The notes beneath the pieces were generated by a model that worked only from the letters and a program-made list of their open reading frames with translations, was not told the DNA's origin and made no database searches. The position numbers were made by a program, and so were the translations under genes. This document shows, one piece after another, positions 33,318 to 62,710 of a stretch of 64,000 nucleotides of DNA. How positions within the stretch are numbered: position 1 is the stretch's first letter; the number at the start of each line of letters is the position of its first letter. Origin of the DNA: Aliikangiella marina (GTDB lineage Bacteria; Pseudomonadota; Gammaproteobacteria; Enterobacterales; Kangiellaceae); the NCBI RefSeq assembly GCF_007004765.1, contig NZ_VIKR01000003.1, positions 248,001-312,000 on the forward strand, written 5' to 3'.

Positions 33318-35021
33318 TCACATTGATTCTGGTGCGCTAACACCGAGTAATTCCAACCCATTCACAAAAACTTGTCTTACTGCATCGATTAAAGTCAAAC
33401 GAGCTTGAGACATTTCCGCATCGGCGACAATCCACCTAGCAGACTCATCATTTTGGCCAATCTGATAGTAACCATGTAGTTCTGCAGCTAGCTCTCGGAG
33501 ATAGTGAGCGATTACATGCGGCTCTAAATTGGCCGCTGCCACTTTGACTAAATCTGGAAATTGACTCATTTTATCCATGAGCCCGGTTTCTTCTTCTAGG
33601 GTTAATTTGTCTAAATGTTTGAGCCCCAAAGCTTGGTCAAATGGTTTGCCCAATTCAGCAGCTTTTCTAAACGCAGAACAAATTCTCGCATGGGCGTACT
33701 GTATGTAATACACCGGGTTTTCATTAGTTTGTGACGCAGCAAGTTCTAAATCGAAAGTCATTTGTGAGTTAGAACGACGCGCAGCGAGGAAGTATCGGGT
33801 GGCATCTTTACCGACTTCGTCAATAATGTCGCGAAGCGTAAGATAACCGCCTTGACGTTTTCCTAACTTAACCTCTTTATCGCCACGCATAACAGTAACC
33901 ATTTGATGCAAAACGACTTCTGGCCAGCCTTTTGGTATGCCAATATCGAGCGCTTGTAAACCGGCTCTGACCCTATCGACGGTGCTGTGATGGTCTGCCC
34001 CAAACTCGTTGACGACTCGGCCAAATCCGCGGTTCCATTTGGTCACATGGTAAGCGACATCCGGAAGGAAGTAGGTATAGCCACCGTCGGTTTTGCGCAT
34101 CACTCGATCTTTATCGTCACCGTAGTCAGTGGTTTTAAGCCATAGGGCACCTTCTTTTTCGTAGGTGTGACCGGCTTTGACGAGCGCATCAACTGTTTTC
34201 TCAATATCGCCATTTTCGTACAAAGATGACTCTAGGAAGTAGACATCAAAGTCGACTTCAAAAGCTTTCAAATCAAGATCTTGCTCTCGACGTAAGTAAG
34301 CGACCGCAAACTCTCTAATTGCCTGTAAATCGTCCGCGTCACCTTTCGCAGTGACATGTTTGTCTGCAGCATCAACGGTTTTCTTTGCCAAGTAGTCATT
34401 GGCAACATCTTGAATATAATCGCCTTGATACCAGTCGTCTTGCCAATCATCTGAGTCAGGTCCAAACCCCTTGCAACGTGCTTGAACTGAATTGGCCAAG
34501 TTATTGATCTGTTGGCCGGCGTCGTTGTAGTAAAACTCTTTAGATACTTGCCAACCGGTCGCATCGAGCAACCTTGAGAGGCAATCACCAACAACTGCGC
34601 CTCGTCCATGGCCAATGTGCAGTGGACCAGTTGGGTTGGCTGAGACGAACTCAACTTGAACCGATTTACCTTCGCCAACATTCGAGTGTCCAAATTGGCC
34701 TTTCTGTTCGATTACTTGGTTAATAATTTGGGTCGCAGCGGCTTGGCTGAGGAAAAAGTTGATGAAACCGGGTCCAGCAATTTCCATTTTATCGATTTCT
34801 GCGCGTTCGCCGAGTAGATCGACGATGAGTTGAGCAACTTCGCGAGGCGGTTTTCCAGCGGGTTTAGCCAACATCAAAGCAGCATTGGTGGCAAAGTCGC
34901 CATGGGCTTTTTCTTTGGTGTGAGTGACATTAGCTTTAGCGGCAAAAGCGTCAGGGATGACACCTTGTGATTTGAGTTGATTGATTGCTTGTTCAAGCCA
35001 AGCTTCAACTACTGCTTTCAT
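33318..35021 (-). CDS. argS: Arginyl-tRNA synthetase
   Basis: The enzyme charges tRNA-Arg. The class I HIGH motif is in SANPTGPLHIGHGRGAVVGD, and the KMSKS-equivalent loop is KLGKRQGGYLTLRDII. The N-terminal tRNA-binding domain (HTKEKAHGDFATNAALMLAK) and the C-terminal anticodon domain with the LRELAAELHGYY segment are complete. I chose the ATG at 35021 (MKAVVEAWLEQAI) over an upstream TTG (35045) because it matches family starts and has AAGG about 11 bases before it. The gene heads the argS-SPOR-hslV-hslU group. Confidence 0.96.
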   Translation of the reverse strand: MKAVVEAWLEQAINQLKSQGVIPDAFAAKANVTHTKEKAHGDFATNAALMLAKPAGKPPREVAQLIVDLLGERAEIDKMEIAGPGFINFFLSQAAATQIINQVIEQKGQFGHSNVGEGKSVQVEFVSANPTGPLHIGHGRGAVVGDCLSRLLDATGWQVSKEFYYNDAGQQINNLANSVQARCKGFGPDSDDWQDDWYQGDYIQDVANDYLAKKTVDAADKHVTAKGDADDLQAIREFAVAYLRREQDLDLKAFEVDFDVYFLESSLYENGDIEKTVDALVKAGHTYEKEGALWLKTTDYGDDKDRVMRKTDGGYTYFLPDVAYHVTKWNRGFGRVVNEFGADHHSTVDRVRAGLQALDIGIPKGWPEVVLHQMVTVMRGDKEVKLGKRQGGYLTLRDIIDEVGKDATRYFLAARRSNSQMTFDLELAASQTNENPVYYIQYAHARICSAFRKAAELGKPFDQALGLKHLDKLTLEEETGLMDKMSQFPDLVKVAAANLEPHVIAHYLRELAAELHGYYQIGQNDESARWIVADAEMSQARLTLIDAVRQVFVNGLELLGVSAPESM

Positions 35022-35141
35022 TGGACTAGATACCTTAAAAATCAAACTGTTACAGATAAAAGTTAATTTAAATTCTTTTTTCTGTATATTAGCTGGGTAT
35101 TATGCAAAAAAAGCAGTAGTTTGGCTATGTAAATCTAGTTT

Positions 35142-35381
35142 TTAGCCTAAATTAGCGACATATTCTTGAAGATCGTCGAAACCACCGATGTGTTTGTTGC
35201 CATGGAACACTTGCGGCACAGTGTGAACCGGCTTGCCAGCTGATTTTGCGAGGTCTTCTTTGGAAATACCTTCTTCCCAAATATCGACATATTTGTAGTC
35301 GAAATTTTTCATTTCGCACAAACGTTTTGCATTAACGCAAAATCCGCAGCCAGGACGGCCAAAAATTGTAAATCTTTCCAT
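35142..35381 (-). CDS. Glutaredoxin (GrxA-type)
   Basis: The 79-residue protein is a single thioredoxin fold with the redox motif CGFC (GRPGCGFCVNAKRLCE), the cis-Pro loop HTVPQVFHG and the GGFDDLQ glutathione-binding end. It would reduce protein disulfides using glutathione. GGAG stands just before the ATG. It lies upstream of argS on the same strand with a 120-base gap. Confidence 0.92.
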   Translation of the reverse strand: MERFTIFGRPGCGFCVNAKRLCEMKNFDYKYVDIWEEGISKEDLAKSAGKPVHTVPQVFHGNKHIGGFDDLQEYVANLG

Positions 35382-35689
35382 CGGTCACTCCAAAAAATAC
35401 TCTGTTGCTTAAAGACTTGTCAGCGAGTTAAACGTTACGGATTGCGCTGATTGCCTTGTATTGGATATTTTGCGGGGACTGAGATAATTAGTCTAATTCA
35501 ATCAACCTATGTTTTTGATAGATTTAATTTAAGTAACGCGAAAATGTAATTGAAAATTCTCATTTACAACTTAATAAAATTTTGAGATATTTCGTGTAAA
35601 TCTTTGAGAAATAAGCAAAGATTAACGATTCTGAGCTATAATTTACGTTCGTCCTCGATAATAAGAATAATTAAATCCACCGAGAAAGT
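35382..35689. other. 308-base AT-rich divergent promoter region
   Basis: This region separates the glutaredoxin gene (leftward) from the GGDEF-EAL sensor gene (rightward). It is very AT-rich in its right half and has no open frame. Apart from a TATAAT at 35637-35642 I see no repeat, hairpin or RNA gene. Confidence 0.5.
35637..35642 (+). promoter_or_regulatory. Candidate -10 element for the GGDEF-EAL sensor gene
   Basis: A perfect TATAAT lies 48 bases before the start codon at 35690. The -35 position (AGCAAA at a 17-base distance) is poor, so activation by a regulator would be expected if this is the promoter. Confidence 0.4.
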
Positions 35690-38600
35690 ATGGTTAACAT
35701 GGCATTCGCTAAAAAACTCTCAACAGGTCTCTTGCTAATTCTAGCAATGCTGGCTGGTGGGGTTTTAGGTGAGCCGCTAATCAAATTCAAAACTATCAGT
35801 AAAACAGAAGGTCTTGCTTCGACCGTTGTTTATGACATAGCACAAGACAAAGACGGCTTTATGTGGTTTGCCACAGAGGATGGTCTCCAAAGATATGATG
35901 GGTTGGAATTTGTCACTTATCGATATAATAGATTAGACAGCGCTTCTTTAAGTAATAATCACGTTAGAGTGCTTCTTATTGATAAGGCCGGTTTATTGTG
36001 GGTAGGCACAAATGACGGATTAAACCTTTACAACAAAAAACACGACAACTTTATTCGCTTTAGTGAAGATTCTCCTGCAGAAAGACAGATTAATTCTGGA
36101 CAAATTCGTTCACTTTATCAAACCAGCGACGGAAAAATTTGGATTGGAACCTCTGCTGGGTTGAATATCTATGACAAGCAGAAAAAATATATAGAACAGC
36201 ACAGTCATTCTAAGGTTCGAGCAATTCTGGAAGATGAGCGAAAGCAGATTTGGATTGGTAGTTTGTATGATGGTTTTCACCAGTTTGATCGTCGAACGAA
36301 GAAGTTTAAGAGAGTAAACTTATTTTCAGATATAGTTAATACTAAGGCACAAAGTCCTAAAAATTTTAGTGTTGTCGATATTTACAGAGACAACTTCGGT
36401 AGAGTTTTTGTTGCAACTTGGGGTGACGGGTTGTTTATTCTCAAAAGAGACTCTAATCGATTAGATCCAGTTCCTTTTGAGCTACCGAGTAAAAAGGTTA
36501 GAACAGTTTTACAAGATAAAAATGGCTATTTTTGGTTTGGTACCAATCAGGGGCTGTATGTTGTTGAACCAAGCGAAAGTAAGGCTCAACTTATTGAAGC
36601 GTTCGATAGAAACGACGCGTCTCTCCCAGTCGATAATGTATTCAAAATTTTTCAATCAAACGATGATACGCTTTGGTTTGGTACTTATGGAGGTGGGGTC
36701 AGTCGTCACTTTCCTAATAGTCGAAATTTTGAAACCTATGGTATTCATCCTAATTCAAGCGACGGACTTATTGATCCGGTTGTTTACTCGATAAATGAAA
36801 ACGCTGAGGGTGACATCTGGATTGGAACTGAAACTGGAAAGGTGTCAAAATTTGATCCAGAGTCTAAAACTTTTACACATTACGAATTTAAAATTGAGGG
36901 TATAGAAAATAAGGACTACATCAATGATATCGTTCACCTAAACGAACAGTACCTTTTAATTGGTACCTCTCTTAATCTAACCTTATACGATCATATTAAT
37001 CAAACTTCTTACCTTTATACGGAGAGTGACAATGCACTTTTTTCAAACGAAATGGCTGTGCGTTTTATTTATCATGACTCCAAAAATCGAATATGGATCG
37101 GTGTTGATAACAAAGGTGTAAAGGCGTTCTATTTTCAGGATAATAAACTTCAAGCGCTTGAAGAAAGCTATATCAACCTTAAGCATCCTAAATCGATGGT
37201 TGAAACTGGGACAGGCAGTATTTTAATCGCGGATATGCATGACGGAGTTTATAAATTAAATACTGATGGTGAGCCTGATCGTTATCAATATTCATTGATT
37301 GAAAATACCAAAAACTTAAATATTGTTAGTGTTAATGAAGATTGGAAACAGAATATTTGGATATCTACGTCATCAAATGGGATAAGGATATTAGGCAAGA
37401 AAGGAAACATTGTAGAGCTGGATGAATCTAATAAGCTCCCCAATAATACCGTTTATTCAGTTGTCCCAGATATCACATCACAGCAAATTTGGGCTAGTAC
37501 CAATGTTGGGCTAATCGCTATTGATTCAGCTACTTTAGACGTCAGTGTTTATGATTCATCGGATGGACTTCAAGGAGATGAGTTTAATAAACCCGGTATT
37601 TTGAGTAAAAGCGGTTATTTATATTTTGGTGGAGTTAGCGGGTTTAATAGGTTTTATCCCAATATTATCGAAAAGAAGCTCTATGTTGCTAAACCTAGAA
37701 TAACTAATATTAGCATCGCGAATAAACCACTTAATTTGGGTAAGAAAAATAAAGCTGCTAATGATTGGGATAACCAAAAGCTAGTCGAATTGAGCTATAA
37801 ACAAACGCCACTGACAATTCACTATACTAGTCCTCAATTTATTAAGCCAAAAGCGCTTGAGTTCAAGCATCGCCTAATAGGGCTGAGTGAAGAGTGGGTA
37901 ATGTCAAATTCAAATATTCGACAAGCAACTTTTACGAACCTAGATCCTGGGGAATACACTTTTCAGTTGAAGGTTAGAGAGGCTGGAGGCACTTGGATCG
38001 ATGCGTCTGATAATTTTAAAATCAATATTTTGCCGCCTTGGTGGTTAAATGCAACAGCTAAGTCACTCTATCTATTTTTAACCATTTTGTTCGTCTCTTT
38101 CGTTTCGATCGTTTTATACAAGAAACGAAAAAAGGAAATCAATATCCAAATTGCCATAAAAGAAAATGAAGAACGTTTAAAGCTAAGTCTTTGGGGATCT
38201 GGACATGAGTTTTGGGATTGGAATATAGAGACCGGTGAAATGTCTCGATCGAATGAATTTAAGAAGATTCAAATTGATTGTCCCAAGCTATCTAAAAATC
38301 TAAATGAACTTGCTAGTTATATTCATCCTAGTGATTTGCAAATGGTGAAAGAAAAACTGAGTAACCACATTGCAGGTAATATTAATTACTTTGATATCAG
38401 TTATCGAATCCTCGACTCAGACAATGGTTGGCGTTGGATTCAAGATCGCGGCAAAGTGGTAGCGTTCGACTCTCAAGGAAACGCGCTGCGGATGTCAGGA
38501 ACTCAGCGAGATATCACCGATATAAGAGAAAAAGAAGCTCAGTTTGAAATGTTAGGGCAAGCATTCAAGAGTACATCGGACGGTGTTTGGATCAGAGACC

Positions 38601-40255
38601 ATGAATGGCGCTTAGTTGAATGTAATCCTGCTTTTGAGCGCATAACCGGTTTCTCAATAGACGAGAAAAAAGGCGAAGCGTTATGGTTCCCTGACTATCA
38701 AGATCAGCCTGAAAACTTACTACAGCGTATTCATATTAGTATTGAAGAGAAAGGTAATTGGCAAGGTGAGGTCTGGGCTGAACGAAAAAATAATGATCCT
38801 TTCCCACAAAAACTCTCGATAGATACGCTTCATGATGAGAAGGGTAATATTCGCTACTATGTGGGCGTTTTTTCCGATATAACTTTCCATAAACGCACTG
38901 AGGAAGAGTTCAGAAAACTGGCTAATTATGACTCTTTAACCGGGCTGCCCAATCGAGCTTGTCTGTATGACCGCTTAAATCAAACTATCGAAAAAGCGAA
39001 ACGTGATAAATCTCGATTTGCTCTGTTTCTTGTTGATGTTGATAACTTTAAACGAATTAATGATTCTCTCGGACATAACGTCGGAGATCATTTGATCAAA
39101 CAAGTAGCCTCACGACTAGTCAATTGCAATAAGGAAGGTGATACAGTTGCTCGAGTCGGTGGTGATGAGTTTGTCATCGTTATCGAGAACGTCCGCTCAT
39201 CCTCGTCGGTCGCAACTTTCTCTGAGCTTTTATTGAAAGAATTAAATCAGCCAATTTTTGTCAAAGGACAAAAGCTGAAACTGAATTTTTCAATTGGTAT
39301 CACGCTTGCGCCTGATGATGCGATTATTCCAGAGCGATTATTGAGAAACGCTGATACTGCAATGTACGAAGCGAAGAAATCGGTTGAAAATTCTTATCGC
39401 TTTTATTCTGTTGAATTTAATGAACGTGCAAGAAAACGACTTGCAATGGAAACTGCCTTGCGGAAAGCCATTGATGATGAAACCATTGAACTTTTCTATC
39501 AGCCTAAAATTGATCTGAATACTGGAAGGGTCAATGGTGTTGAGGCTCTCGCTCGGTGGACCCATAAAGAGCTTGGTTTTATCAGTCCGGGAGAGTTTAT
39601 TCCTTTAGCAGAAGAAACAGGCCTTATTGTCCCGCTGGGCGCTCAATTATTAAGACAAGCAATTCGTCAAACTAAGGAATGGGTTGATGCTGGAGTGATG
39701 CGAGGACGTACCGCAATTAATTTATCCGCCAATCAATTTTGGAACAGGAATTTAGCCGTTGAAGTTTCTGAAATATTAAAAGAAGAAGGCCTGGATGCCA
39801 AGTTCATTGAATTGGAAATTACTGAAAGTGCTTGTATGCAAGATATTCAAGAAACTCTTAAGCAAATTGAAGTATTAAAACAACTTGGTTTCAGTCTTGC
39901 ACTCGATGATTTTGGGACCGGTTATTCTTCATTAGCACAGTTAAAAACCCTTCCTTTTGATACGATAAAAGTCGATAAAAGTTTTGTTGATAATATTGAA
40001 ACCAACAAGCAAGATGCGAAAGTTGTTAAAGCCGTTATCGATATTGCTAAGACGATGGAGATGGAAGTAGTCATTGAGGGCGTTGAGTCAAAAACACAAT
40101 GTGAATATTTATGGATGAATCGCGCTTATATTGTCCAAGGATTTTATTTTAGTCGCCCGATACGAGGTAGCTTGTGTCCTGAAATCTTCAATCGACATTG
40201 GCACAAGCAAGAATATTTAAGCAAAATGGCAGTTAACGTAACTCCTTTAGGTTGA
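35690..40255 (+). CDS. Hybrid sensor: two-component-regulator propellers, PAS, GGDEF and EAL domains
   Basis: The 1521-residue protein has a signal helix (about 8-24), then a periplasmic sensor of many beta-propeller repeats. These show the Reg_prop pattern D-x-x-G-x-[LMIF]-W-[FVI]-G-T, such as DKDGFMWFATEDGLQRYDG. A Y_Y_Y domain (about 715-785) and one membrane helix (about 793-813) follow. Inside the cell come two PAS domains (about 828-945 and 950-1065), a GGDEF domain with intact ARVGGDEFVIV (about 1155), and an EAL domain with VEALARW (about 1283). The architecture predicts control of cyclic di-GMP in response to a periplasmic signal, possibly a polysaccharide. With both motifs intact, the net direction cannot be told. 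Confidence 0.93.
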   Translation: MVNMAFAKKLSTGLLLILAMLAGGVLGEPLIKFKTISKTEGLASTVVYDIAQDKDGFMWFATEDGLQRYDGLEFVTYRYNRLDSASLSNNHVRVLLIDKAGLLWVGTNDGLNLYNKKHDNFIRFSEDSPAERQINSGQIRSLYQTSDGKIWIGTSAGLNIYDKQKKYIEQHSHSKVRAILEDERKQIWIGSLYDGFHQFDRRTKKFKRVNLFSDIVNTKAQSPKNFSVVDIYRDNFGRVFVATWGDGLFILKRDSNRLDPVPFELPSKKVRTVLQDKNGYFWFGTNQGLYVVEPSESKAQLIEAFDRNDASLPVDNVFKIFQSNDDTLWFGTYGGGVSRHFPNSRNFETYGIHPNSSDGLIDPVVYSINENAEGDIWIGTETGKVSKFDPESKTFTHYEFKIEGIENKDYINDIVHLNEQYLLIGTSLNLTLYDHINQTSYLYTESDNALFSNEMAVRFIYHDSKNRIWIGVDNKGVKAFYFQDNKLQALEESYINLKHPKSMVETGTGSILIADMHDGVYKLNTDGEPDRYQYSLIENTKNLNIVSVNEDWKQNIWISTSSNGIRILGKKGNIVELDESNKLPNNTVYSVVPDITSQQIWASTNVGLIAIDSATLDVSVYDSSDGLQGDEFNKPGILSKSGYLYFGGVSGFNRFYPNIIEKKLYVAKPRITNISIANKPLNLGKKNKAANDWDNQKLVELSYKQTPLTIHYTSPQFIKPKALEFKHRLIGLSEEWVMSNSNIRQATFTNLDPGEYTFQLKVREAGGTWIDASDNFKINILPPWWLNATAKSLYLFLTILFVSFVSIVLYKKRKKEINIQIAIKENEERLKLSLWGSGHEFWDWNIETGEMSRSNEFKKIQIDCPKLSKNLNELASYIHPSDLQMVKEKLSNHIAGNINYFDISYRILDSDNGWRWIQDRGKVVAFDSQGNALRMSGTQRDITDIREKEAQFEMLGQAFKSTSDGVWIRDHEWRLVECNPAFERITGFSIDEKKGEALWFPDYQDQPENLLQRIHISIEEKGNWQGEVWAERKNNDPFPQKLSIDTLHDEKGNIRYYVGVFSDITFHKRTEEEFRKLANYDSLTGLPNRACLYDRLNQTIEKAKRDKSRFALFLVDVDNFKRINDSLGHNVGDHLIKQVASRLVNCNKEGDTVARVGGDEFVIVIENVRSSSSVATFSELLLKELNQPIFVKGQKLKLNFSIGITLAPDDAIIPERLLRNADTAMYEAKKSVENSYRFYSVEFNERARKRLAMETALRKAIDDETIELFYQPKIDLNTGRVNGVEALARWTHKELGFISPGEFIPLAEETGLIVPLGAQLLRQAIRQTKEWVDAGVMRGRTAINLSANQFWNRNLAVEVSEILKEEGLDAKFIELEITESACMQDIQETLKQIEVLKQLGFSLALDDFGTGYSSLAQLKTLPFDTIKVDKSFVDNIETNKQDAKVVKAVIDIAKTMEMEVVIEGVESKTQCEYLWMNRAYIVQGFYFSRPIRGSLCPEIFNRHWHKQEYLSKMAVNVTPLG

Positions 40256-40257
40256 TG

Positions 40258-40290
40258 AAAAAAAGCGGCAAAGATATGCCGCTTTTTTTA
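40258..40290 (+). terminator. Rho-independent terminator of the GGDEF-EAL gene
   Basis: AAAGCGGCA and TGCCGCTTT form a 9-bp stem around a six-base loop, flanked by A- and T-runs, immediately after the stop codon. Confidence 0.9.
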
Positions 40291-40557
40291 TTAGATATCT
40301 CCAGCCGCTATACTGTTGTGTTTGCGTTTAAATAAAGTCTATCTTCAGTATTTTTTTTAAATCTCATTATGCGTTTTTTTATTACAAAAAAACATTGAAT
40401 TCAATTTTTATTTAATGCGCTTATTAACAATAAAAATGTCTATTGCCCCGCAATAAAACTAAAACTTCTAATTTATCTCTGAAACTAATACAAGCCTCAC
40501 AAAAACCGGGCTCCAGCACATATAAAATTCGTATAGTTAATTGTTAATCTTGTTTAG

Positions 40558-40586
40558 TTGACAAAATAAAAAGGTCATCTTAAACA
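40558..40586 (+). promoter_or_regulatory. Candidate promoter of the repeat-protein gene
   Basis: A perfect -35 hexamer TTGACA (40558-40563) is followed after exactly 17 bases by TAAACA (40581-40586), a partial -10 match. The leader to the ATG at 40646 would be about 50 bases and would contain the small hairpin plus T-run. Confidence 0.45.
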
Positions 40587-40645
40587 GGTGAATTACATTC
40601 GGCAATCCTGCCTCTTTTTTTTTATATTTAGTTAGGTAAAAAACC

Positions 40646-42211
40646 ATGAAGTCATTACGTAATTTAGTCGTAGTTTTGGTATCTAGTTTGATGCTTGTTA
40701 GTAATGTTGGCTTGGAAGCTAAAATTAATGAGAATTTCGTAGACAAAAAGGAAGTACTCTTTCACGAGAGAGACGTTTTAAACATTGACATACAATATAA
40801 GAATAAAGTCATACAAAAGAGAGTAAGCAATAATATTATTGTGTTAGTCACGCAGATTCAAAGAGAAGGTGCAATCGATCCGAGAATAGTCATTAAAAGA
40901 GAAGGTGCAATCGATCCGGTGAATAGCCTTGCGAGAGAAGGTGCAATCGATCCGGTGAATAGCCTTGCAAGAGAAGGTGCCATCGATCCGGTGAACAGCG
41001 TTGCAAGAGAAGGTGCCATCGATCCGGTGAACAACGTTGCAAGAGAAGGTGCCATCGATCCGGTGAACAGCGTTGCAAGAGAAGGTGCCATCGATCCGTT
41101 GAATAGCCTTGCAAGAGAAGGTGCCATCGATCCGGCGAACAGCGTTGCAAGAGAAGGTGCCATCGATCCGTTGAATAGCCTTGCAAGAGAAGGTGCCATC
41201 GATCCGGCGAACAGCGTTGCAAGAGAAGGTGCAATTGATCCGTTGAATAGCGTTACAAGAGATGCAATCGATCCGGTTAACAGCGTTGCAAGAGAAGGTG
41301 CCATTGATCCAATGAATAGCCTTGTAAGAGAGGGTGCGATCGATCCGATGAACAGCGTTTCAAGAGAAGGTACCATCGATCCGGTGAATCGACTTGCAAG
41401 AGAAGGTGCAATCGATCCAGTGAATCGCATAACTAGAGAAGGTGCCATTGATCCAATGAATAGCATTGCAAGAGAGGGTGCGATCGATCCGATGAACAGC
41501 GTTTCAAGAGAAGGTGCCATCGATCCCGTGAGTCGACTTGTAAGAGAAGGTGCAATTGATCCGGTGAATCGCATAACTAGAGAAGGCGCGATTGATCCCG
41601 TGAATCGAATTTTGCGAGTGGGTCTTATTGCTCCTGTAAATACAAAAGCGTTAGTAGGCAAAGCAGCCAAAATCGTACGTTTAGGTGAAGACGCCCTTGC
41701 GAAAATTGATCGATTAGGCGAAGGCGACCCTACAAAAATTGCTCGATTAGGTGAAGGTGACCCAGCCAAAATCGCCCGTTTAGGTGAAGGCGACCCAGCC
41801 AAAATCGCCCGTTTAGGTGAAGGTGACCCAGCCAAAACCGCACGCTTAGGTGAAGGCGATCCTGCAAAAATCGCTCGATTAGGCGAAGGTGACCCAGCCA
41901 AAATCGCACTTTTAGGCGAAGGTGATCCAGCGAAAATCGCACGTTTAGGTGAAGGCGACCCAGCAAAAATCGCGCGCCTAGGTGAAGGCGACCCAGCGAA
42001 AATTGCACGTTTAGGTGAAGGCGATCCAGCGAAAATCGCGCGCCTAGGTGAAGGCGACCCAGCGAAAATCGCGCGTTTAGGTGAAGGCGACCCAGCGAAA
42101 ATCGCTCGTTTAGGCGAAGGCGATCCAGCGAAAATCGCGCGTTTAGGCGAAGGTGATCCCGCGAAAGTTGCTCGCTTAGGTGAAGGTGATCCTGCTGAAA
42201 AGATTGCTTAA
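40646..42211 (+). CDS. Exported protein made of two tandem peptide-repeat arrays; function unknown
   Basis: I do not recognise this family. The 521-residue protein has a signal peptide (KSLRNLVVVLVSSLMLV, probable cleavage near GLEA-KIN) and about 48 unique residues, and then consists of repeats to its last codon. Array 1 (residues about 73-335) has some 22 units of 12 residues, consensus REGAIDPVNSLA. A 10-residue transition follows. Array 2 (about 346-521) has 16 units of 11 residues, consensus LGEGDPAKIAR. In array 2 most base changes between units are synonymous in this frame, so selection acts on this protein. Every typical unit has an Asp-Pro bond and an Arg. There is no anchor, Cys or known domain. 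AGG lies 10 bases before the ATG. Confidence 0.85.
   Translation: MKSLRNLVVVLVSSLMLVSNVGLEAKINENFVDKKEVLFHERDVLNIDIQYKNKVIQKRVSNNIIVLVTQIQREGAIDPRIVIKREGAIDPVNSLAREGAIDPVNSLAREGAIDPVNSVAREGAIDPVNNVAREGAIDPVNSVAREGAIDPLNSLAREGAIDPANSVAREGAIDPLNSLAREGAIDPANSVAREGAIDPLNSVTRDAIDPVNSVAREGAIDPMNSLVREGAIDPMNSVSREGTIDPVNRLAREGAIDPVNRITREGAIDPMNSIAREGAIDPMNSVSREGAIDPVSRLVREGAIDPVNRITREGAIDPVNRILRVGLIAPVNTKALVGKAAKIVRLGEDALAKIDRLGEGDPTKIARLGEGDPAKIARLGEGDPAKIARLGEGDPAKTARLGEGDPAKIARLGEGDPAKIALLGEGDPAKIARLGEGDPAKIARLGEGDPAKIARLGEGDPAKIARLGEGDPAKIARLGEGDPAKIARLGEGDPAKIARLGEGDPAKVARLGEGDPAEKIA
40862..41650 (+). repeat. Tandem array 1: 36-bp coding repeat, about 22 units
   Basis: Units of 36 bp start AGAGAAGGTGCNATYGATCC. 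Unit 12 (41258-41290) has lost one codon. Units 7-8 (41078-41149) and 9-10 (41150-41221) are a perfect 72-bp tandem duplication. Units 13-16 (41291-41434) and 17-20 (41435-41578) are a near-identical 144-bp duplication. The last unit (41615-41650) is degenerate. Confidence 0.95.
41681..42208 (+). repeat. Tandem array 2: 33-bp coding repeat, 16 units
   Basis: Units of 33 bp encode LGEGDPAKIAR with few changes. The first unit (LGEDALAKIDR) and the last (LGEGDPAEKIA) are the most diverged, as expected for array ends. Differences among inner units are nearly all third-base or TTA/CTA leucine changes. A 30-bp degenerate unit (41651-41680) joins this array to array 1. Confidence 0.95.
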
Positions 42212-42404
42212 GATCGATCTTTCTAAAATTAGTCAAAATTACTATTAGTTTGTGTTTTAGTTAAAACATTCCTGTCATACTGAGTCTCTTATTCCGTAAC
42301 TCTTTGATCTAATTAGCGATTTTTATTTGGATCAAATCTTGTATATCTCCTAGTGAAACTACTTTGATAATTGAGTGGAGTTTCTACACTTTTAAGGAGA
42401 GACA

Positions 42405-42788
42405 ATGTCGATTATTTTTAATCTTTTATGGATCATTTTGGGCGGATTCTTCGTTTTTTGTGGATATTTCTTTGGTGGAATCGTCTTATGTATGACATTA
42501 GTGGGAATTCCTTGGGGATTGCAGTGTTTCAAATTGGCTATTTTAGCCTTGTTCCCTTTTGGCTCCGAGGTCACGAGCCGCCATCCTCATGCCTATCCGA
42601 GTGACGGTTTGAACCTAATCATGAATATCATCTGGTTAATTTTTGGTGGATTGTGGGTGGTTTTCAGCCATTTAGCCTGGGGAATCGTGCTGTGTTTGTC
42701 GATTATTGGTATTCCCTTCGGAATCCAACATTTCAAACTAATGAAGCTTGGTTTTACACCGTTCGGACGCAGAATAGTCGATTATTGA
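42405..42788 (+). CDS. yccF: YccF-domain inner-membrane protein
   Basis: The 127-residue protein consists of two homologous halves, each with the YccF pattern: LLWIILGGFFVF ... GIVLCMTLVGIPWG ... FKLAILALFPFG, and IIWLIFGGLWVV ... GIVLCLSIIGIPFG ... FKLMKLGFTPFG. This makes about four membrane segments. The family's function is not known. AAGGAGA precedes the ATG. It stands alone between the repeat-protein gene and kbl. Confidence 0.9.
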   Translation: MSIIFNLLWIILGGFFVFCGYFFGGIVLCMTLVGIPWGLQCFKLAILALFPFGSEVTSRHPHAYPSDGLNLIMNIIWLIFGGLWVVFSHLAWGIVLCLSIIGIPFGIQHFKLMKLGFTPFGRRIVDY

Positions 42789-42938
42789 CCATTATCTGAG
42801 TTATATCTTAATACAAGTGCGCCGACCATTGGTTGTAGCCATTTGAAACCGGTTGGCTTTCACGATTATTGCTGTAAAATTGCTTCCCAATCGATTTAAC
42901 GAGTGGCACTAGTTACTTGGAATTAGGAAGCACAACCC

Positions 42939-44132
42939 ATGACAAAACCTTTCTTAACTCACCTTCAAGAGCAAATTAACGAATTACATGAAGCTGGCTT
43001 GTATAAAGATGAGCGCGTCATTGACTCTCAACAACAAGCAGACATCCACGTCACTACCGGTGAAAATGTTCTCAATTTTTGCGCTAATAACTATCTTGGT
43101 CTCGCAAATAGTGAGCAACTAATAAAGGCCGGTCAAGCTGCGCTTAATGAGTGGGGTTATGGATTAGCATCAGTACGATTTATTTGTGGTACACAAGCTG
43201 TTCACAAAAAACTAGAGGAACGAATCAGCCAGTTTTTAGGTATGGAAGATACGATTCTTTATTCATCGTGTTTCGATGCTAATGGTGGCTTGTTTGAAAC
43301 TATTTTAACCAATGAAGATGCAATTATTTCAGATGCGTTGAATCATGCTTCAATCATCGATGGAGTTCGTCTTTCAAAAGCAATGCGCTACCGCTACGCG
43401 AACAATGACATGGCTGACTTAGAAGCTCAACTAAAAGCAGCAGATGAAGCTGGAGCGCGTTACAAACTCATTGCTACCGATGGTGTATTTTCTATGGATG
43501 GTTATGTCGCTAATTTAGAGGCTATTTGTGATTTAGCAGATAAATACGATGCGATGGTCATGGTTGATGATTCCCACGCAGTTGGTTTTATGGGCGAAAA
43601 TGGCCGTGGTACTCATGAGCACTGTAATGTAATGGATCGCGTCCACATTATTACAGGTACTCTCGGTAAGGCGCTAGGTGGTGCTTCTGGGGGCTATACT
43701 TCAGGTAAGAAAGAAATTGTTGAATGGTTACGCCAACGTTCACGTCCTTATCTTTTCTCTAATACCTTGGCACCAGTGATTGCTGCGGCTTCGATCAAAG
43801 TCCTTGATCTGTTGGAAAGCGGCAATGAATTGAGGGCTAAACTCAATGACAATGCGAAATACTTTCGGGAAAAAATGAGCGCACTGGGTTTTGAGTTGCT
43901 TCCCGGTGAGCACCCGATCATTCCGGTAATGTTGGGTGATGCAGCATTGGCGAAAAAATTTGCTGATGAAATGTTGCAAGAAGGTATTTATGTCGTTGGT
44001 TTTTCATTTCCAGTTGTGCCAAAAGGACAAGCGCGGATACGCACTCAGATGTCCGCTGCTCATGATAAATCACACATTGACAAAGCGGTGGCAGCTTTTG
44101 AAAAAGTGGGCAAAAAACTGGGAGTTATTTAA
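42939..44132 (+). CDS. kbl: Glycine C-acetyltransferase (2-amino-3-ketobutyrate CoA ligase)
   Basis: The enzyme cleaves 2-amino-3-oxobutyrate with CoA to glycine and acetyl-CoA, the second step of threonine breakdown. The 397-residue sequence is a PLP alpha-oxoamine synthase: [42 protein letters not shown], and the Schiff-base Lys in [16 protein letters not shown]. It precedes tdh by 54 bases, the usual operon. AGGAAG lies before the ATG. Confidence 0.97.
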
Positions 44133-44186
44133 GCTTAGACTACACTCCAATAGTGATTCGCTGTTTGAACAAAGAGTAACGTATTA

Positions 44187-45215
44187 ATGAAAACACTAGC
44201 AAAAAGTTTTGCCAAAGAAGGCATTTGGATGGAGCAAGCTGATCGTCCTGAGGTCGGCCATAATGATGTCTTAATTAGAGTTAAAAAAACCGCAATATGC
44301 GGTACCGATGTGCACATCTACAACTGGGATGAGTGGTCACAAAATACTATTCCTGTACCGATGACCGTCGGCCACGAATTCGTTGGTGTGATCGAAGAAA
44401 TTGGTCAAGAAGTTCAGGGGTTTAAAGTGGGTGATCGTGTATCGGGTGAAGGTCATATCACCTGCGGTCACTGCAGAAATTGTCGTGCTGGTCGGCGCCA
44501 TCTTTGCCGCAATACAGTAGGAGTTGGCGTAAATCGGCCAGGAGCCTTTGCTGAATACATTGCCATCCCAGCTGTTAATGCATTTAAACTGCCTGATGAT
44601 ATTAGTGACGAAATGGCCTCAATCTTTGACCCATTTGGCAATGCGGTGCATACGGCTTTGTCATTTGATCTTGTCGGCGAAGATGTGTTGATTACAGGTG
44701 CTGGACCCATTGGTATTATGGCGGCAGCTGTTTGTCGACATGTTGGGGCACGCAATGTCGTTATTACTGATGTTAATAATTATCGACTTGGACTTGCCCA
44801 AGAAATGGGGGCAACACGGGCGGTGAATGTTGCTGATGAAAAGCTCGACGATGTTATGCAAGAATTAGGAATGAACGAAGGTTTTGATATTGGCTTAGAA
44901 ATGTCGGGCGTACCTTCTGCCGTTCAATCCATGTTGGCAACAATGAATCATGGTGGCAAGATCGCGATGTTAGGGATCCCGCCGTCCGACATGGCGGTTG
45001 ATTGGAACCAAGTTATTTTTAAAGGGTTACATATCAAAGGTATCTATGGCCGAGAAATGTTTGAAACTTGGTACAAGATGGTTTCGCTTTTACAATCAGG
45101 CTTGGATATCTCACCTATCATCACCCATCGCTATCCGGTCGATCAGTTCCAGACTGGTTTTGATGTAATGCGCTCCGGTCAGTCGGGAAAGGTAATTCTT
45201 GATTGGTCTGAGTAA
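44187..45215 (+). CDS. tdh: L-threonine 3-dehydrogenase
   Basis: The enzyme oxidises threonine to 2-amino-3-oxobutyrate with NAD+. The 342-residue sequence is a zinc medium-chain dehydrogenase: catalytic zinc ligands in AICGTDVH and VGHEFVG, structural zinc Cys cluster in [15 protein letters not shown], and the nucleotide-binding [14 protein letters not shown]. With kbl it turns threonine into glycine and acetyl-CoA, consistent with growth on amino acids. Confidence 0.97.
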
Positions 45216-45250
45216 GTCAGCTCAGAAAAAATTCATTGATCATTGCTTCC

Positions 45251-45287
45251 AAAAACGCCCGACTCAATAAGAGAACGGGCGTTTTTG
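45251..45287 (+). terminator. Rho-independent terminator of kbl-tdh
   Basis: AAAAACGCCCG and CGGGCGTTTTT form an 11-bp stem around a 14-base loop with the T-run in place, 36 bases after the tdh stop. Confidence 0.9.
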
Positions 45288-45409
45288 TAAACCGCTCATC
45301 CCTGTTAAACTGGTTTGACTTATGCGGAATGTCAGCATGTTTTTTCAAGTAAATTTTTGGAACGTTTGAGAGCCTTAACTAGCAACGAGCAGAGCGAATA
45401 ATTCGTGGG

Positions 45410-45865
45410 CTATTGAAATAAGTATTGAGTAAACAATAAATTTTCAACCACTTCTCTTCCTAGCTCTTCCTTAAGCGCCGCAGCGACGATATCTTTGGCT
45501 TGCACTCTGAGCGCATCTCGTTGCGCGAGATCGCGAACGACTGATTCTTGTTGGCGGTTAAAAAAATCAATCAGGGCATCTTGGATAAGGGGTAAGTTCT
45601 CATCGACGATATCCCAGTCTTCATCACCGCGAACGACAAGCTGAACCTGCACCACTATGTAGCCCATTTTGCGCCCAGTATTCTGGTAAAAGGTCATAAT
45701 ATTGGGGGCAATTTGATAGTACTTTACTGGCTTTTTAGGGGCTTCTTCTTCGGTACCTTCAGCGTTCTCAGCCGACTCTTCTGCTGCGCTAGCGTTGAAA
45801 GCCGCGAACGAGAAACAGACCGCTATAAGCAATGCGAAGAGATGAGAAAGAGAGTCTTTGTGCAT
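45410..45865 (-). CDS. FliL-like exported protein
   Basis: The 151-residue protein begins with a signal peptide or membrane anchor (LFALLIAVCFSFAAFNASA), then an acidic linker (about 28-45) and a domain resembling the periplasmic part of FliL. That domain shows YYQIAPNIMTFYQ, a beta-strand YIVVQVQLVV, then NLPLIQDALIDFFNRQ, and ends LGREVVENLLFTQYLFQ, close to the FliL C-terminus. FliL supports the flagellar stator. No flagellar gene is nearby, and such solitary FliL-like proteins are common in marine gammaproteobacteria, so a flagellar role is only possible. Confidence 0.75.
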   Translation of the reverse strand: MHKDSLSHLFALLIAVCFSFAAFNASAAEESAENAEGTEEEAPKKPVKYYQIAPNIMTFYQNTGRKMGYIVVQVQLVVRGDEDWDIVDENLPLIQDALIDFFNRQQESVVRDLAQRDALRVQAKDIVAAALKEELGREVVENLLFTQYLFQ

Positions 45866-45982
45866 TATTTGTCGAATATAAATCTATGTAGTTGGTATAA
45901 AAAGTATAGATCAATATCCTTTGTGGAGAGAAAAAATACTCACGGAATACGGTGCCAATAACTTGAGTGAGCGAAGGTGGAA

Positions 45983-46147
45983 TTAAATTTCCACCATTTC
46001 AAAGTCTTCTTTACCTACGCCACAATCTGGGCATAACCAGTCTTCAGGTACGTCTTCCCAGCGTGTTCCGGGCGCTATACCATCCTCTGGCCAACCTTTT
46101 TCTTCGTCGTAGATCCAACCACAAACGATACATTCCCACTTCTTCAT
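45983..46147 (-). CDS. rubA: Rubredoxin
   Basis: This short gene was read directly on the minus strand. The 54-residue product is [20 protein letters not shown] followed by [20 protein letters not shown], then [14 protein letters not shown]. The four iron ligands are the two CxxC pairs at 6/9 and 39/42, and the length and spacing are typical. Rubredoxin carries single electrons, for example to alkane hydroxylases or oxygen-detoxifying flavoproteins. It is divergent from ubiC, an arrangement also seen in Pseudomonas and relatives. Confidence 0.95.
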
Positions 46148-46302
46148 TGATATCTCGTCGATTGAAAAATTAACAGAAGGCGACTTTATAAAGATTTTTC
46201 AGGCAAACTGCAAGTTGACAGGAAAATATACATCTCCAACTGCGGTTTTTGATATAATCTTGCGCAAGTTAGTAATCAGCCCAAAACAAGTCAGAGACAC
46301 TA

Positions 46303-46794
46303 TTGAACCCACAGATTTTAGCGTTACTCTGCGACAGAGGTAGTCTTACTGGACGATTCAAGCAGGTGATGGGAGCGACCCCAAGGCTGACAAAGCTAAG
46401 CCAAGGTATGCAGTTTGTATCGCCCTTAGAAAGACGCGTATTAGGTATTAGACCTCGCCAGATGGCGTTGGTAAGAGAAATTAAAATGGGAAAGGGTGAG
46501 CAAAATTGGCTGTTCGCGAGAACGGTCGTTCCGCTTAGAACCCTAACAGGCGTAGCGCGAAGAATCAGTATGCTAAATGATACGCCGATTGGAAAAATTC
46601 TTTTCGGTCGTCATGGTGCCGCGAGAAGCAGTATGCATGTAGAGCTAACCCTTGATTACCCTCGCTCGGTGGCTCAGTTTGATTTGCCAACCGATCAGTT
46701 GCTTTGGCAACGTCGTTCGATTTTCGAGTTTGATTCAGGTCCCTTAATGGTCAGAGAAGTCTTTTTACCGGATTGTCCAATATATGAGTCATAA
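46303..46794 (+). CDS. ubiC: Chorismate pyruvate-lyase
   Basis: The enzyme splits chorismate into 4-hydroxybenzoate and pyruvate, the first committed step of ubiquinone synthesis. The 163-residue sequence has LTGRFKQVMGATPRL near the N-terminus, the active-site Arg in ALVREIKM and the conserved Glu in MVREVFLPDCPIY. The start is a TTG with AGAGA a few bases upstream; no in-frame ATG would keep the family N-terminus. Its end overlaps the start of ubiA by 11 bases. Confidence 0.93.
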   Translation: MNPQILALLCDRGSLTGRFKQVMGATPRLTKLSQGMQFVSPLERRVLGIRPRQMALVREIKMGKGEQNWLFARTVVPLRTLTGVARRISMLNDTPIGKILFGRHGAARSSMHVELTLDYPRSVAQFDLPTDQLLWQRRSIFEFDSGPLMVREVFLPDCPIYES

Positions 46795-47743
46795 AAAGCG
46801 ACCGTCACAAATCACTTTTTGGGGCACCTTCCTAGAGATGATGGCCGAGTTGTATAGCTGGGTAAAAAGCATCAAGCTCTCGCCCACCTGGCAGTATCGG
46901 TTGCGTCAATATGGGCTTCTTATGCGGGTTGATAAGCCAATCGGAATATTCCTGTTACTTTGGCCAACTCTATGGGCGCTTTGGTTAGCGGCGGATGGTA
47001 CTCCTTCATTATCGCTGATTGTCATTTTTTCAATCGGTGTGTTCCTCACGCGTTCTGCAGGGTGTGTAATTAATGATTTTGCAGACCGAAATTTTGACGG
47101 AAAAGTCGAGCGAACCAAGTCAAGACCATTAGCGACCGGTGTCGTCACAGAAAAAGAAGCCCTGGCTTTATTTGTCATATTGTCTTTGATTGCTTTTGGG
47201 TTGGTGCTCATGCTCAACAGTCTATCAATCATTTTATCGGTAATTGCAATCGCGATTGCTATGGCGTACCCCTTTATGAAACGCGTGACTTACTTTCCAC
47301 AGGTCGTGCTGGGGGCGGCTTTTTCTATGTCGATTCCGATGGCATTTGCAGCTACCAATAACGAAATACCGGAAAGCGCGTGGTTGCTCTATATTGCTAA
47401 CCTTTTGTGGGTTTTAGCTTATGATACCTTGTACGGTATGGTGGACAAGAAGGATGATTTGAAAGTCGGCATTAAATCAACCGCGATTTTGTTTGGTGAA
47501 GCAGATTTACAAATTATCGCCACAATTCAAGGGTTTTTTCTGTTTGGGATGTTGCTTGTCGGGGGGCGGTTTGAACTCAACTATTGGTATTATATTTCCT
47601 TATTAGTCGCGACTGGGCTTATCGTGTGGCAGCTTTACCACTGCCGCAAACGACAGCGAGAAAACTGTTTTACGGCTTTTTTAAACAATAACTGGGTCGG
47701 CTTGGTGATATTTTGTGGTATTCTGCTGGCTAAGTCTTCCTAG
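46784..47743 (+). CDS. ubiA: 4-hydroxybenzoate polyprenyltransferase
   Basis: UbiA attaches the polyprenyl tail to 4-hydroxybenzoate in the inner membrane. Both Asp-rich motifs are present: NDFADRNFD and YDTLYGMVDKKDD. About eight hydrophobic helices follow MRVDKPIGIFLLLWPTLWAL. The 319-residue form has about 35 extra residues before the family's usual start, including a hydrophobic stretch (FWGTFLEMMAELYSWV). The 11-base overlap with ubiC implies translational coupling, and the substrate passes directly from UbiC. Confidence 0.95.
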   Translation: MSHKKRPSQITFWGTFLEMMAELYSWVKSIKLSPTWQYRLRQYGLLMRVDKPIGIFLLLWPTLWALWLAADGTPSLSLIVIFSIGVFLTRSAGCVINDFADRNFDGKVERTKSRPLATGVVTEKEALALFVILSLIAFGLVLMLNSLSIILSVIAIAIAMAYPFMKRVTYFPQVVLGAAFSMSIPMAFAATNNEIPESAWLLYIANLLWVLAYDTLYGMVDKKDDLKVGIKSTAILFGEADLQIIATIQGFFLFGMLLVGGRFELNYWYYISLLVATGLIVWQLYHCRKRQRENCFTAFLNNNWVGLVIFCGILLAKSS

Positions 47744-47804
47744 GTAGCGGCTGTTTCGGCCAACGATGTCTAGTGTGGAAGCTAAACAATGCGGATAGGT
47801 ATCG

Positions 47805-48188
47805 ATGTCTAAGAGAATCTTGGTAGTTGAAGATGACTTTGCAAACCAGCGGGTCGCCAGTCTGTTTATCGCGAAATTAGGCTTTGAGGCTGACATTGCT
47901 GAGAACGGCAGTGTTGCAGTTGAAAAGGCTAGCGAAAGCCAATATGACTTAATCTTAATGGACTGCCAAATGCCTATTATGGATGGTTTTGAAGCTTGTC
48001 GTCAGATAAGAGCCGAAAACGGTCCCAATCAAAATATTCCCATCGTCGCTCTTACAGCCAATGTAATTGCTGGTATTGATGAAGAGTGCCAAGAGGCGGG
48101 GATGAATGATGTACTTAACAAACCCGTTCAACTTGACAATATGCAGGCCATGCTGGAAAAGTGGCTTAACAGGCCTGTTGCAGAATAG
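47805..48188 (+). CDS. Single-domain response regulator (CheY-like receiver)
   Basis: The 127-residue protein is a lone receiver domain: acidic pair in VVEDD, phosphoacceptor Asp in LILMDCQMPIMDGFEA, Thr in VALTANV and Lys in LNKPVQ. No output domain is present, so it would act by protein contact or as part of a phosphorelay. The sequence around the Asp (MDCQMPIMDG) is of the kind found in hybrid histidine kinases. AGGT precedes the ATG. No kinase is nearby. Confidence 0.92.
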   Translation: MSKRILVVEDDFANQRVASLFIAKLGFEADIAENGSVAVEKASESQYDLILMDCQMPIMDGFEACRQIRAENGPNQNIPIVALTANVIAGIDEECQEAGMNDVLNKPVQLDNMQAMLEKWLNRPVAE

Positions 48189-48244
48189 GTTAGAAGCTCA
48201 AAGTTAGAACCTCAAAGTTTGAACCCCAGAGCTAGAACCTCATC
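48189..48244 (+). repeat. Four degenerate 14-bp tandem repeats after the response-regulator gene
   Basis: GTTAGAAGCTCAAA, GTTAGAACCTCAAA, GTTTGAACCCCAGA and GCTAGAACCTCATC follow one another directly, starting at the base after the TAG stop codon. They are non-coding and look like a small, decaying minisatellite. Confidence 0.75.
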
Positions 48245-48295
48245 ATCCAGTGATAATTGAGCTTAAAGCCAGACTTGTCTGAGGCTCACGCTAAA

Positions 48296-49342
48296 TTAGT
48301 TGTTTTGGCAGACGCTCGGTAAATATCGCGACTCCAATCTTACGGGTTGGCAGCGCCAATCGTATCCTCCATCGTTGTCCAATTCAGGAATAAAAAGCAA
48401 CTGGCTCCCGGCAAGTGATTCTGGAGACTCAAAATTGAGACTCAAAACACCTTCGGGCTCGAGCAGGATATAATAATCGCTTGTCCGCATGTCATCGCTC
48501 GATATTTTGGCTTGTTCAAAATTTCTTGGCCAATATCCGGTATCCAGTGCATAAATTGAGATAGCTGCTTGCGCTTGTTGAGCGCGACTCGTCGCAGAAG
48601 CAACTTTAGCGCGCGTTGTATAGTCATGATAAGCAGGTACCGATACCATTGCGATAATACCACCAATGGGAATAATCAAAACCAAACCGACTACGGCAAT
48701 AATACCGCCAACGGACATGCCTGCTGGTGGGTTTTGATTAACTTCAACAATTTGGTTCGGTCCAAAATTATTGTTAACAATCACTGTACCTGCGATTAAA
48801 TCGTGAAGCGCTTGTTTGCGTTTGGTGAAAGCCGCGAGTAAGTATCCGATTAGAAGTGTAAATGCGGTAATTGCGCCTGCTGCTTGTCTACCGGCGGCAT
48901 GGGCAAACGACAAAGCATGTCCATTCATATCAACAACTTTGATACCCAAGGCTCTTTTGCCGATCGTCGCTTGCGCATTTGAACTTTCTTGAAGGGCGTA
49001 ATACATCCACCAGCTTAAGTAATAAAACAGATAAATCAAGCCAACTGAGGAGCTCATCGCAAACGGATCATTAAGGCTTGCAGCGGCGCCAAAGCCCCAA
49101 ATTGCGATCATGAAAAAAGTAAAATTGAAAATGATGCCGTCGATAAAATAAGCGAAAAAACGTTTCCAAAAACCACCATACACAAACCCAGCTGCCATTG
49201 GCGGTTGCGCTTGACTGGTGGGCGGTTGATAAGGCGTATTAGCTTGCGACAAAGACGCACCACAATTTAAGCAGAAGCTAGCATTCATTTGATTGCGCGT
49301 TTTACATGAGGGACACAAAAGGCTATTGGAGTTTATTGACAT
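48296..49342 (-). CDS. Chimeric membrane protein: zinc ribbon, RDD domain and pilin-like domain
   Basis: The 348-residue protein has three parts. Residues 10-27 form a zinc ribbon (CPSCKTRNQMNASFCLNC). After a Gln/Pro linker, residues about 55-190 are an RDD membrane domain (FWKRFFAYFIDGIIFNF, then TIGKRALGIKVVD). After a second linker, residues about 210-348 resemble a mature type IV pilin. The pilin-like part has a hydrophobic helix ending AMVSVPAYHDYTTRAKVASA, a globular region with DTGYWP, and the end CQPVRLESRYLPSVC, like the PilA disulfide loop. There is no prepilin cleavage site. Function is unknown; the third part may sit in the periplasm and sense or bind pilins. Confidence 0.8.
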   Translation of the reverse strand: MSINSNSLLCPSCKTRNQMNASFCLNCGASLSQANTPYQPPTSQAQPPMAAGFVYGGFWKRFFAYFIDGIIFNFTFFMIAIWGFGAAASLNDPFAMSSSVGLIYLFYYLSWWMYYALQESSNAQATIGKRALGIKVVDMNGHALSFAHAAGRQAAGAITAFTLLIGYLLAAFTKRKQALHDLIAGTVIVNNNFGPNQIVEVNQNPPAGMSVGGIIAVVGLVLIIPIGGIIAMVSVPAYHDYTTRAKVASATSRAQQAQAAISIYALDTGYWPRNFEQAKISSDDMRTSDYYILLEPEGVLSLNFESPESLAGSQLLFIPELDNDGGYDWRCQPVRLESRYLPSVCQNN

Positions 49343-49417
49343 AGTTATAGCTGAAATAGAATATTATAAAATCAAATTAAGATGAATTTTGGAAACTGTC
49401 AAGAAGCAATCGGTCAC

Positions 49418-49453
49418 AGCGCCGCGATTTCAATTCGAAGGCGGCGCTTTTAA
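49418..49453. terminator. Hairpin downstream of kmo
   Basis: AGCGCCGC and GCGGCGCT form an 8-bp GC-rich stem around a 15-base loop. The short T-run (TTTTAAT) follows on the plus strand; on the minus strand, where kmo ends, no T-run follows. It probably still ends or trims the kynurenine operon message. Confidence 0.5.
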
Positions 49454-49488
49454 TGCAGATAATTCAACTTGAATAAATCGAATTAAGG

Positions 49489-62675: not shown

Positions 62676-62710
62676 TTCAACTCAACTCAACTCAACTCAA
62701 CTCAACTCAG
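62676..62710 (+). repeat. CTCAA pentanucleotide tandem repeat
   Basis: About six and a half copies of CTCAA stand in a row, the last one changed to CTCAG, 18 bases after the nuclease terminator. It lies outside any gene. Confidence 0.9.

Follow-up and report, generated by a model that had tools for sequence, protein, structure and literature searches.

The stretch of Aliikangiella marina DNA analysed here (contig NZ_VIKR01000003.1; 64,000 nucleotides, hereafter the window) carries on its plus strand a gene for a repeat protein of 521 amino acids (40646..42211), delimited from the list of open reading frames and from relatives found in the same place. Read by eye, residues 1-25 (MKSLRNLVVVLVSSLMLVSNVGLEA; 40646..40720) resemble a signal peptide and are followed by a unique segment of 47 residues (residues 26-72; 40721..40861) without similarity to the relatives. 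Array 1 (40862..41614) comprises 21 units of the REGAIDPVNSLA type, each with IDP and 12 residues long save for one 11-residue step. A decayed 22nd unit (RVGLIAPVNT) and a linker occupy the region between the arrays (41615..41680). Array 2 (41681..42208) runs up to the stop codon and consists of 16 LGE units in 11-residue steps, 14 of which read LGEGDPAKIAR or are one change away. Its first unit is decayed (LGEDALAKIDR), while the last (LGEGDPAEKIA) has one extra residue between Asp-Pro and Ala compared with the other units. The unit counts are accompanied by Tandem Repeats Finder results, which give a 36-nt array of 20.8 copies at 40861-41605 and a 33-nt array of 16.3 copies at 41664-42201, and the DNA pattern of the DP/Ala frame is matched eight times in the window vs none in 100 shuffles. 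The initial annotation had described a protein that is almost all repeat, with two unit families reaching the last codon, Asp-Pro in the typical unit and no cysteine, and this description holds in each respect: there are 36 DP and no Cys in the whole protein, and the arrays also lack His.

Signal-peptide-like starts are likewise seen by eye in relatives, although in three of them (G008, G012 and G015) the N-terminus may be an uncleaved anchor instead. Judged solely by the appearance of its N-terminus, the window protein is probably exported. On the minus strand, a frame of 347 codons (40858-41901) runs open through array 1 into array 2 and is a by-product of the repeats. Elsewhere in the window there are a perfect TCAAC array (62677-62709, 6.6 copies), which could be a slippage tract, and a 14-base array (48189-48242, 3.9 copies).

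The repeat gene is flanked by genes on the same strand. Upstream, the domain scan finds a sensor of 1521 amino acids (35690..40255) with a Reg_prop propeller, Y_Y_Y, two PAS domains, GGDEF and EAL, a combination that we take to serve c-di-GMP turnover. A terminator-like hairpin, GCGGCA-TGCCGC followed by a run of seven T (40265..40289, plus strand), was recognised by eye 3' of the sensor gene and suggests that the repeat gene would have a separate transcript. This hairpin is absent from the terminator scan, perhaps because pairing in its stem could continue into the run of T. Downstream follow a gene for a membrane protein (42405..42788), presumably YccF-like and a frequent neighbour in the relatives' loci, and a kbl-like gene (42939..44132), which we take to encode glycine C-acetyltransferase and which serves as the synteny anchor. 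For the leader, Rfam gives sub-threshold matches only, with none at the gathering score in 30000-64000, and the leaders of the relatives have no common element recognisable by eye.

A protein search over 99 genomes, that of A. marina included, recovers syntenic genes with other units, and in the relatives the interval from the sensor gene to kbl was read at the DNA level. The repeat gene is present in 9 of 40 genomes of the family, including the window, and these belong to two genera. The units are RNNGVDPQQLIA and RLGNGNDPAAKIA in G003, RGTKVDPQSRLA in G005, HNARGVDPRLATA in G002, RRIGVDPKSDLT and RLGNGDKPAAYA in G006, RVRSVDPSQSIA in G008, RMGNIDPSLQVA in G015, KLQGTDPSNSLA and KIDGTDPVQVIA in G012, and KGILVDPKVRVA in G001, where a contig end cuts the gene after two Asp-Pro. 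Contig ends fall inside the array in four of the nine genomes (G001, G002, G006 and G008), as expected of repeats in draft assemblies, and the complete proteins have 13 to 37 units. The unit thus differs between species but keeps [RK]x4-Asp-Pro-x4-Ala: across 11 aligned four-unit stretches, every unit has Asp-Pro except one DKP unit in G006, and the Ala at the unit end varies little or not at all, while decayed units at array ends, including those of the window, can lack it. The eight complete C-termini of the family lie at the fifth residue after the last Asp-Pro (DP+5) in five cases, end in Ala in five and combine both in four, which speaks for a unit of the form Arg-x4-Asp-Pro-x4-Ala and leaves room for processing between Ala and Arg. 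In the window protein, this spacing results from the extra residue of the last LGE unit.

A profile of these stretches detects eight of the 40 family genomes at E 0.01, missing the cut gene of G001, and at E 1e-6 only the same eight among 394 genomes of the order. Scans with the window protein found no relative in broad collections of genome contigs and viral contigs, where near genomes are possibly absent, and a phage collection gave no match. A pattern scan of viral contigs returned 59 stretches, which were taken for repeats rich in proline or for matches out of frame. A literature search found no paper on these repeat proteins, which form a family without a name to search by. The gene is not a singleton but positionally conserved in two genera, and a similar 12-residue frame is encountered in two distant groups.

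Sensor orthologs with at least 50% identity occur in 8 of the 40 family genomes, A. marina included, and the repeat gene follows in all eight at a distance of 131-469 bases. In G003, G012 and G015 this identity covers part of the sensor length only, and in G012 the front part of the sensor gene matches at 41% in another frame. The ninth repeat gene, in G006, is truncated by the end of its contig, which shows only the side away from the sensor. Neither a sensor ortholog nor a repeat gene was found in the remaining 31 genomes, some of which are incomplete (55-82%). The fast-changing repeat protein is thus positionally conserved beside the same signalling gene, in a co-occurrence that is not phylogenetically independent, as it spans two genera. 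In G012, of genus g3, the repeat gene is followed by a large gene on the opposite strand (L043 6608-10750), by eye an AraC-type hybrid sensor kinase, and G018 carries a fragment of a similar gene before yccF (L028 111-785).

Co-diversification of sensor and repeat protein is unsupported. For the pairs G001-G005, G001-G008 and G005-G008, identity in the periplasmic part of the sensor is 0.49, 0.43 and 0.42 vs 0.53, 0.44 and 0.42 in a control paralog, and identity in the cytoplasmic part is 0.78, 0.64 and 0.61 vs 0.74, 0.53 and 0.52. Pairs with G003, whose sensor is cut so that about 170 periplasmic residues are compared, give periplasmic values of 0.53, 0.46 and 0.45 vs 0.56, 0.48 and 0.46. The periplasmic domain is therefore no more diverged than that of its matched paralog; nothing here shows that sensor and repeat protein interact, and the result counts against a ligand-receptor pair. 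A second large sensor of like build (L167-L172) is apparently orthologous in six genomes; in matched pairs it is more diverged in its cytoplasmic part than the repeat-adjacent sensor.

Comparison of units within an array shows how strongly the peptide is constrained. The 15 units of array 2 that were scored have 15 distinct DNA forms but only 6 peptides; 49 of their 61 changes fall in third codon positions, as the initial annotation had noticed for this array, and 50 of 61 are synonymous vs an expected fraction of about 0.28, giving a pN/pS of 0.086. Array 1, to which that earlier statement did not extend, follows the same tendency weakly: across 20 scored units, 40 of 85 changes are in third positions and 36 of 85 are synonymous vs 0.26 expected (pN/pS 0.49), the amino-acid changes lying mostly past Pro and at the unit end. 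In the relatives, five arrays of at least eight units have pN/pS values of 0.035, 0.055, 0.072, 0.094 and 0.179. In G015, the 16 units occur in two DNA forms and show only three changes, all synonymous. Short arrays give values of 0.40 in G006 (three units) and 0.51 in the first array of G012 (four units), and the single change among the three units of G008 is nonsynonymous. The earlier claim that the peptide is under selection is borne out by these values, most clearly for array 2 and the five longer arrays of the relatives.

The arrays also turn over. The difference at fourfold sites between units of one array ranges from 0.00 (G015) to 0.58 (array 2 of the window), while the corresponding distance for kbl between the window and nine relatives, among them G011, a genome without the repeat gene, is 0.64-0.82 and near saturation (32-158 sites each). 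Since the distance within arrays is smaller than that between species, the arrays look younger than the species splits. At the same time, some arrays are old by their fourfold sites and have a low pN/pS, so that the unchanged peptide must be selected. Neighbouring units are more alike than in shuffled arrays, the observed value being reached in 31 (array 1) and 22 (array 2) of 2000 shuffles, which is explicable by duplication alone. The simplest account would be that arrays were re-amplified repeatedly from a single seed unit, after which purifying selection kept their units uniform.

The statement that the units belong to no described family stands in that no profile fits consistently across the seven proteins scanned, and needs the qualification that several single matches pass their cut-offs. 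The Pfam matches above cut-off include DUF7486 for the window protein (41 vs 27 bits), LysM for G003 (67 vs 20.9) and DUF6281 for G002 (53.9 vs 28). As each of the seven proteins has a top match of its own, no two members agreeing, the Pfam and NCBIfam matches (DUF7486, CsgB, LysM, TPR, hexapeptide, DUF6281 and others) were judged to be repeat artefacts. The CsgB match of the window protein is far below its cut-off (42.8 vs 165 bits). Sequence matches to ankyrins and flotillin in the PDB, and tblastn matches on plasmids to collagen-like, pentapeptide and further proteins, were ascribed to inflation of scores by the repeats.

Two known repeat folds invite comparison. Curlin repeats follow the pattern GxxNxAxxxQ, which array 2 resembles with Asp and Arg replacing Asn and Gln; in contrast to CsgA and CsgB, the curlin family PF07012 (Curlin_rpt) is unmatched in all 15 genomes scanned, the E. 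coli control being positive. The hexapeptide of left-handed beta-helices has small residues at set positions. Many 12-residue units have two hydrophobic residues six apart, and the G005 protein gives weak hexapeptide matches below cut-off, but units of 11 or 13 residues do not fit a period of six, and several units carry large residues at the small positions.

AlphaFold2 in single-sequence mode yields five models with mean pLDDT values of 55, 37, 32, 31 and 26, so that one of the five is fairly confident. In this best model, array 1 is predicted as a beta-solenoid with one coil per unit (pLDDT 61-85, about 82 in mid-array), while array 2 stays near 31. The 347-codon antisense frame, folded as a control, also gives strands over array 1, one per unit, at pLDDT 45-65, which makes the predicted solenoid weak evidence; the sense frame models better than this control, and no more. 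A 2025 paper describes AlphaFold2 drawing solenoids for meaningless repeats (PMC11795689); AlphaFold3 reportedly shows this tendency less. Foldseek found no PDB match at E <= 0.001, the best being 8.3e-3.

Beyond the family, a profile search at class level (369 genomes, E 1e-5) adds one further genome, G757, with two short proteins, encoded on two contigs, that contain nothing but a signal-peptide-like start and units of the KVFENDPVGPTA type (L142, L144, L145). By eye, no sensor gene is recognised near them, and in one of the two proteins the first unit directly follows the AxA end of the signal-peptide-like start; two near relatives of G757 lack such proteins. With G757 added and no Cupriavidus sequence included, the profile finds G1039 as the sole match outside its own members at E <= 1e-5 in 398 genomes of the phylum (E 1.3e-7). 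The G1039 protein is short, starts like a signal peptide and has 12-residue units with DPx4A, mostly preceded by [KR]x4; like both G757 proteins, it ends at DP+5 with Ala. When units are permuted with DP kept together, scores at least as high as observed occur in 25 (G757a), 180 (G757b) and 5 (G1039) of 2000 permutations, a weak support since the distant matches had been chosen by the profile.

In the order of G1039, 2 of 300 genomes are found, G1039 itself and G980, both Cupriavidus-like, and the G1039 protein matches 23 plasmid records, every one from Cupriavidus. On pMOL30 the matched gene lies between czcE and a porin gene, and the gene order published in PMC2864759 identifies it as czcJ. 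That paper attributes to CzcJ, MmrQ and CopQ a signal sequence and 3-4 copies of RDxxTDG, and confines their occurrence to Cupriavidus and Ralstonia. Strain CH34 has 21 copQ homologs, called poorly characterised in PMC7563307. The Cupriavidus-type genomes contain several DPYTDGA repeat proteins each, CopQ-like in appearance (L154-L166), and some have two unit blocks with a spacer, e.g. VAGLDRTGVSSEPAR. The CopQ-like proteins (CopQ, CzcJ, MmrQ, PrsQ1 and PrsQ2) share with the window family a build almost wholly of repeats and 12-residue units, and many units of G1039 and G980 read [KR]x4DPx4A; their signal sequence would have its counterpart in the start of the window protein as read by eye. 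They differ in the TDG after Asp (DPYTDGA, or DVFTDGA in CzcJ), in their few units and in their small size, whereas the window protein combines two kinds of unit, 37 in total, with 12-residue steps in array 1 and 11-residue steps in array 2, and another gene neighbourhood. The frame common to both may reflect homology or convergence and is a similarity in architecture only; how broadly it occurs is judged from samples of genomes.

This likeness raises the possibility that the window protein is a giant form of a CopQ-like repeat protein of the periplasm, induced by stress and serving to buffer ions or damage to the envelope, a reading that we regard as doubtful. The G1039 match and the build of its protein would fit, as would a profile-profile comparison of the repeat family with the Cupriavidus-type proteins (probability 85.9, E 5e-6), a result probably inflated by repeats. 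A function for such proteins is indicated by the loss of silver resistance in a resistant mutant upon deletion of PrsQ1 and PrsQ2 (PMC7380067). Yet the motif RDxxTDG is absent, no TDG occurring anywhere in the window protein; Asp-Pro is found in one of the five CzcJ units, the others having DV or DI in mostly DVFTDGA units; and 11 further Cupriavidus-type proteins all end elsewhere than at DP+5. In the reverse direction, a Cupriavidus-type profile of 10 stretches reaches three of the nine repeat genes, at E 0.0058 (G015), 0.67 (window) and 2.7 (G005). No metal gene was recognised by eye among the open reading frames of 34000-50000, and arrays without Cys or His also argue against this reading. 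The shared 12-residue frame is not independent evidence, as the search selected for it. Because TDG is absent and the Cupriavidus-type profile barely detects it, the window protein is not filed as CopQ-like.

A precursor cut between Ala and Arg or Lys, which would release many copies of a species-specific peptide of 11-13 residues, perhaps a signal and possibly read by the sensor, seems unlikely. Tandem units that are uniform within a species and divergent between species are also seen in multi-copy pheromone precursors of the yeast alpha-factor type. The fixed Ala-[Arg/Lys] junction, the family C-termini described above, those of the three first-found distant proteins, which all stand at DP+5 with Ala, and the G757 protein whose units start right after AxA would suit such cleavage. 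The 11 further Cupriavidus-type proteins, however, run past DP+5 or end otherwise, the window protein contains two unit kinds, and by eye no protease, modifying or other processing enzyme is recognised beside the repeat gene. The narrower proposal of a store of identical species-specific peptides, released between Ala and Arg and sensed by the propeller-domain c-di-GMP sensor next door, is slightly less probable still, the periplasmic part of that sensor lacking excess divergence; if it were true, each species would have a private signal into the same output domains. Least probable is a non-functional repeat expansion. Such arrays expand easily, G015 has 16 units in two DNA forms, and constraint is mild in array 1 and in the short arrays of G006 and G012, but the low pN/pS of array 2 and of the five relatives' arrays, some old by fourfold sites, and a position kept in nine genomes speak against it.

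We tentatively favour an exported, multivalent repeat polymer of the envelope or matrix, tied to c-di-GMP signalling, a reading suggested by uniformity inside the protein combined with change between species. The gene, its repeats, the selection on them, the synteny and the turnover are demonstrated by the sequences, while its export, its role as a polymer and its link to c-di-GMP are all inferred. As a periplasmic or extracellular protein of a family in two genera of the host's family, it would owe its module backbone and junctions to the fixed letters of [R/K]-x4-Asp-Pro-x4-Ala, while the free letters would set a surface that is the same across the units of one array and variable between species. 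Arrays would come about through successive rounds of amplification of a single seed unit, with selection keeping them uniform, since units might pack against their neighbours or bind the same partner, as in an envelope or matrix filament or a multivalent scaffold. The neighbouring c-di-GMP sensor could govern the production or the use of the polymer. An envelope or matrix polymer would accommodate the uniformity, the replacement between species, the fixed skeleton, the probable export and the adjacency of the sensor without further parts.

If this reading is true, a probably exported protein keeps its skeleton of Arg/Lys, Asp-Pro, Ala and a step of about 12 residues while all its units are rewritten together between congeneric species. 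The family would then offer a clean natural system for the study of unit turnover in repeat polymers; it might also represent an output of a c-di-GMP sensor of the propeller type and perhaps connect to the CopQ-like proteins.
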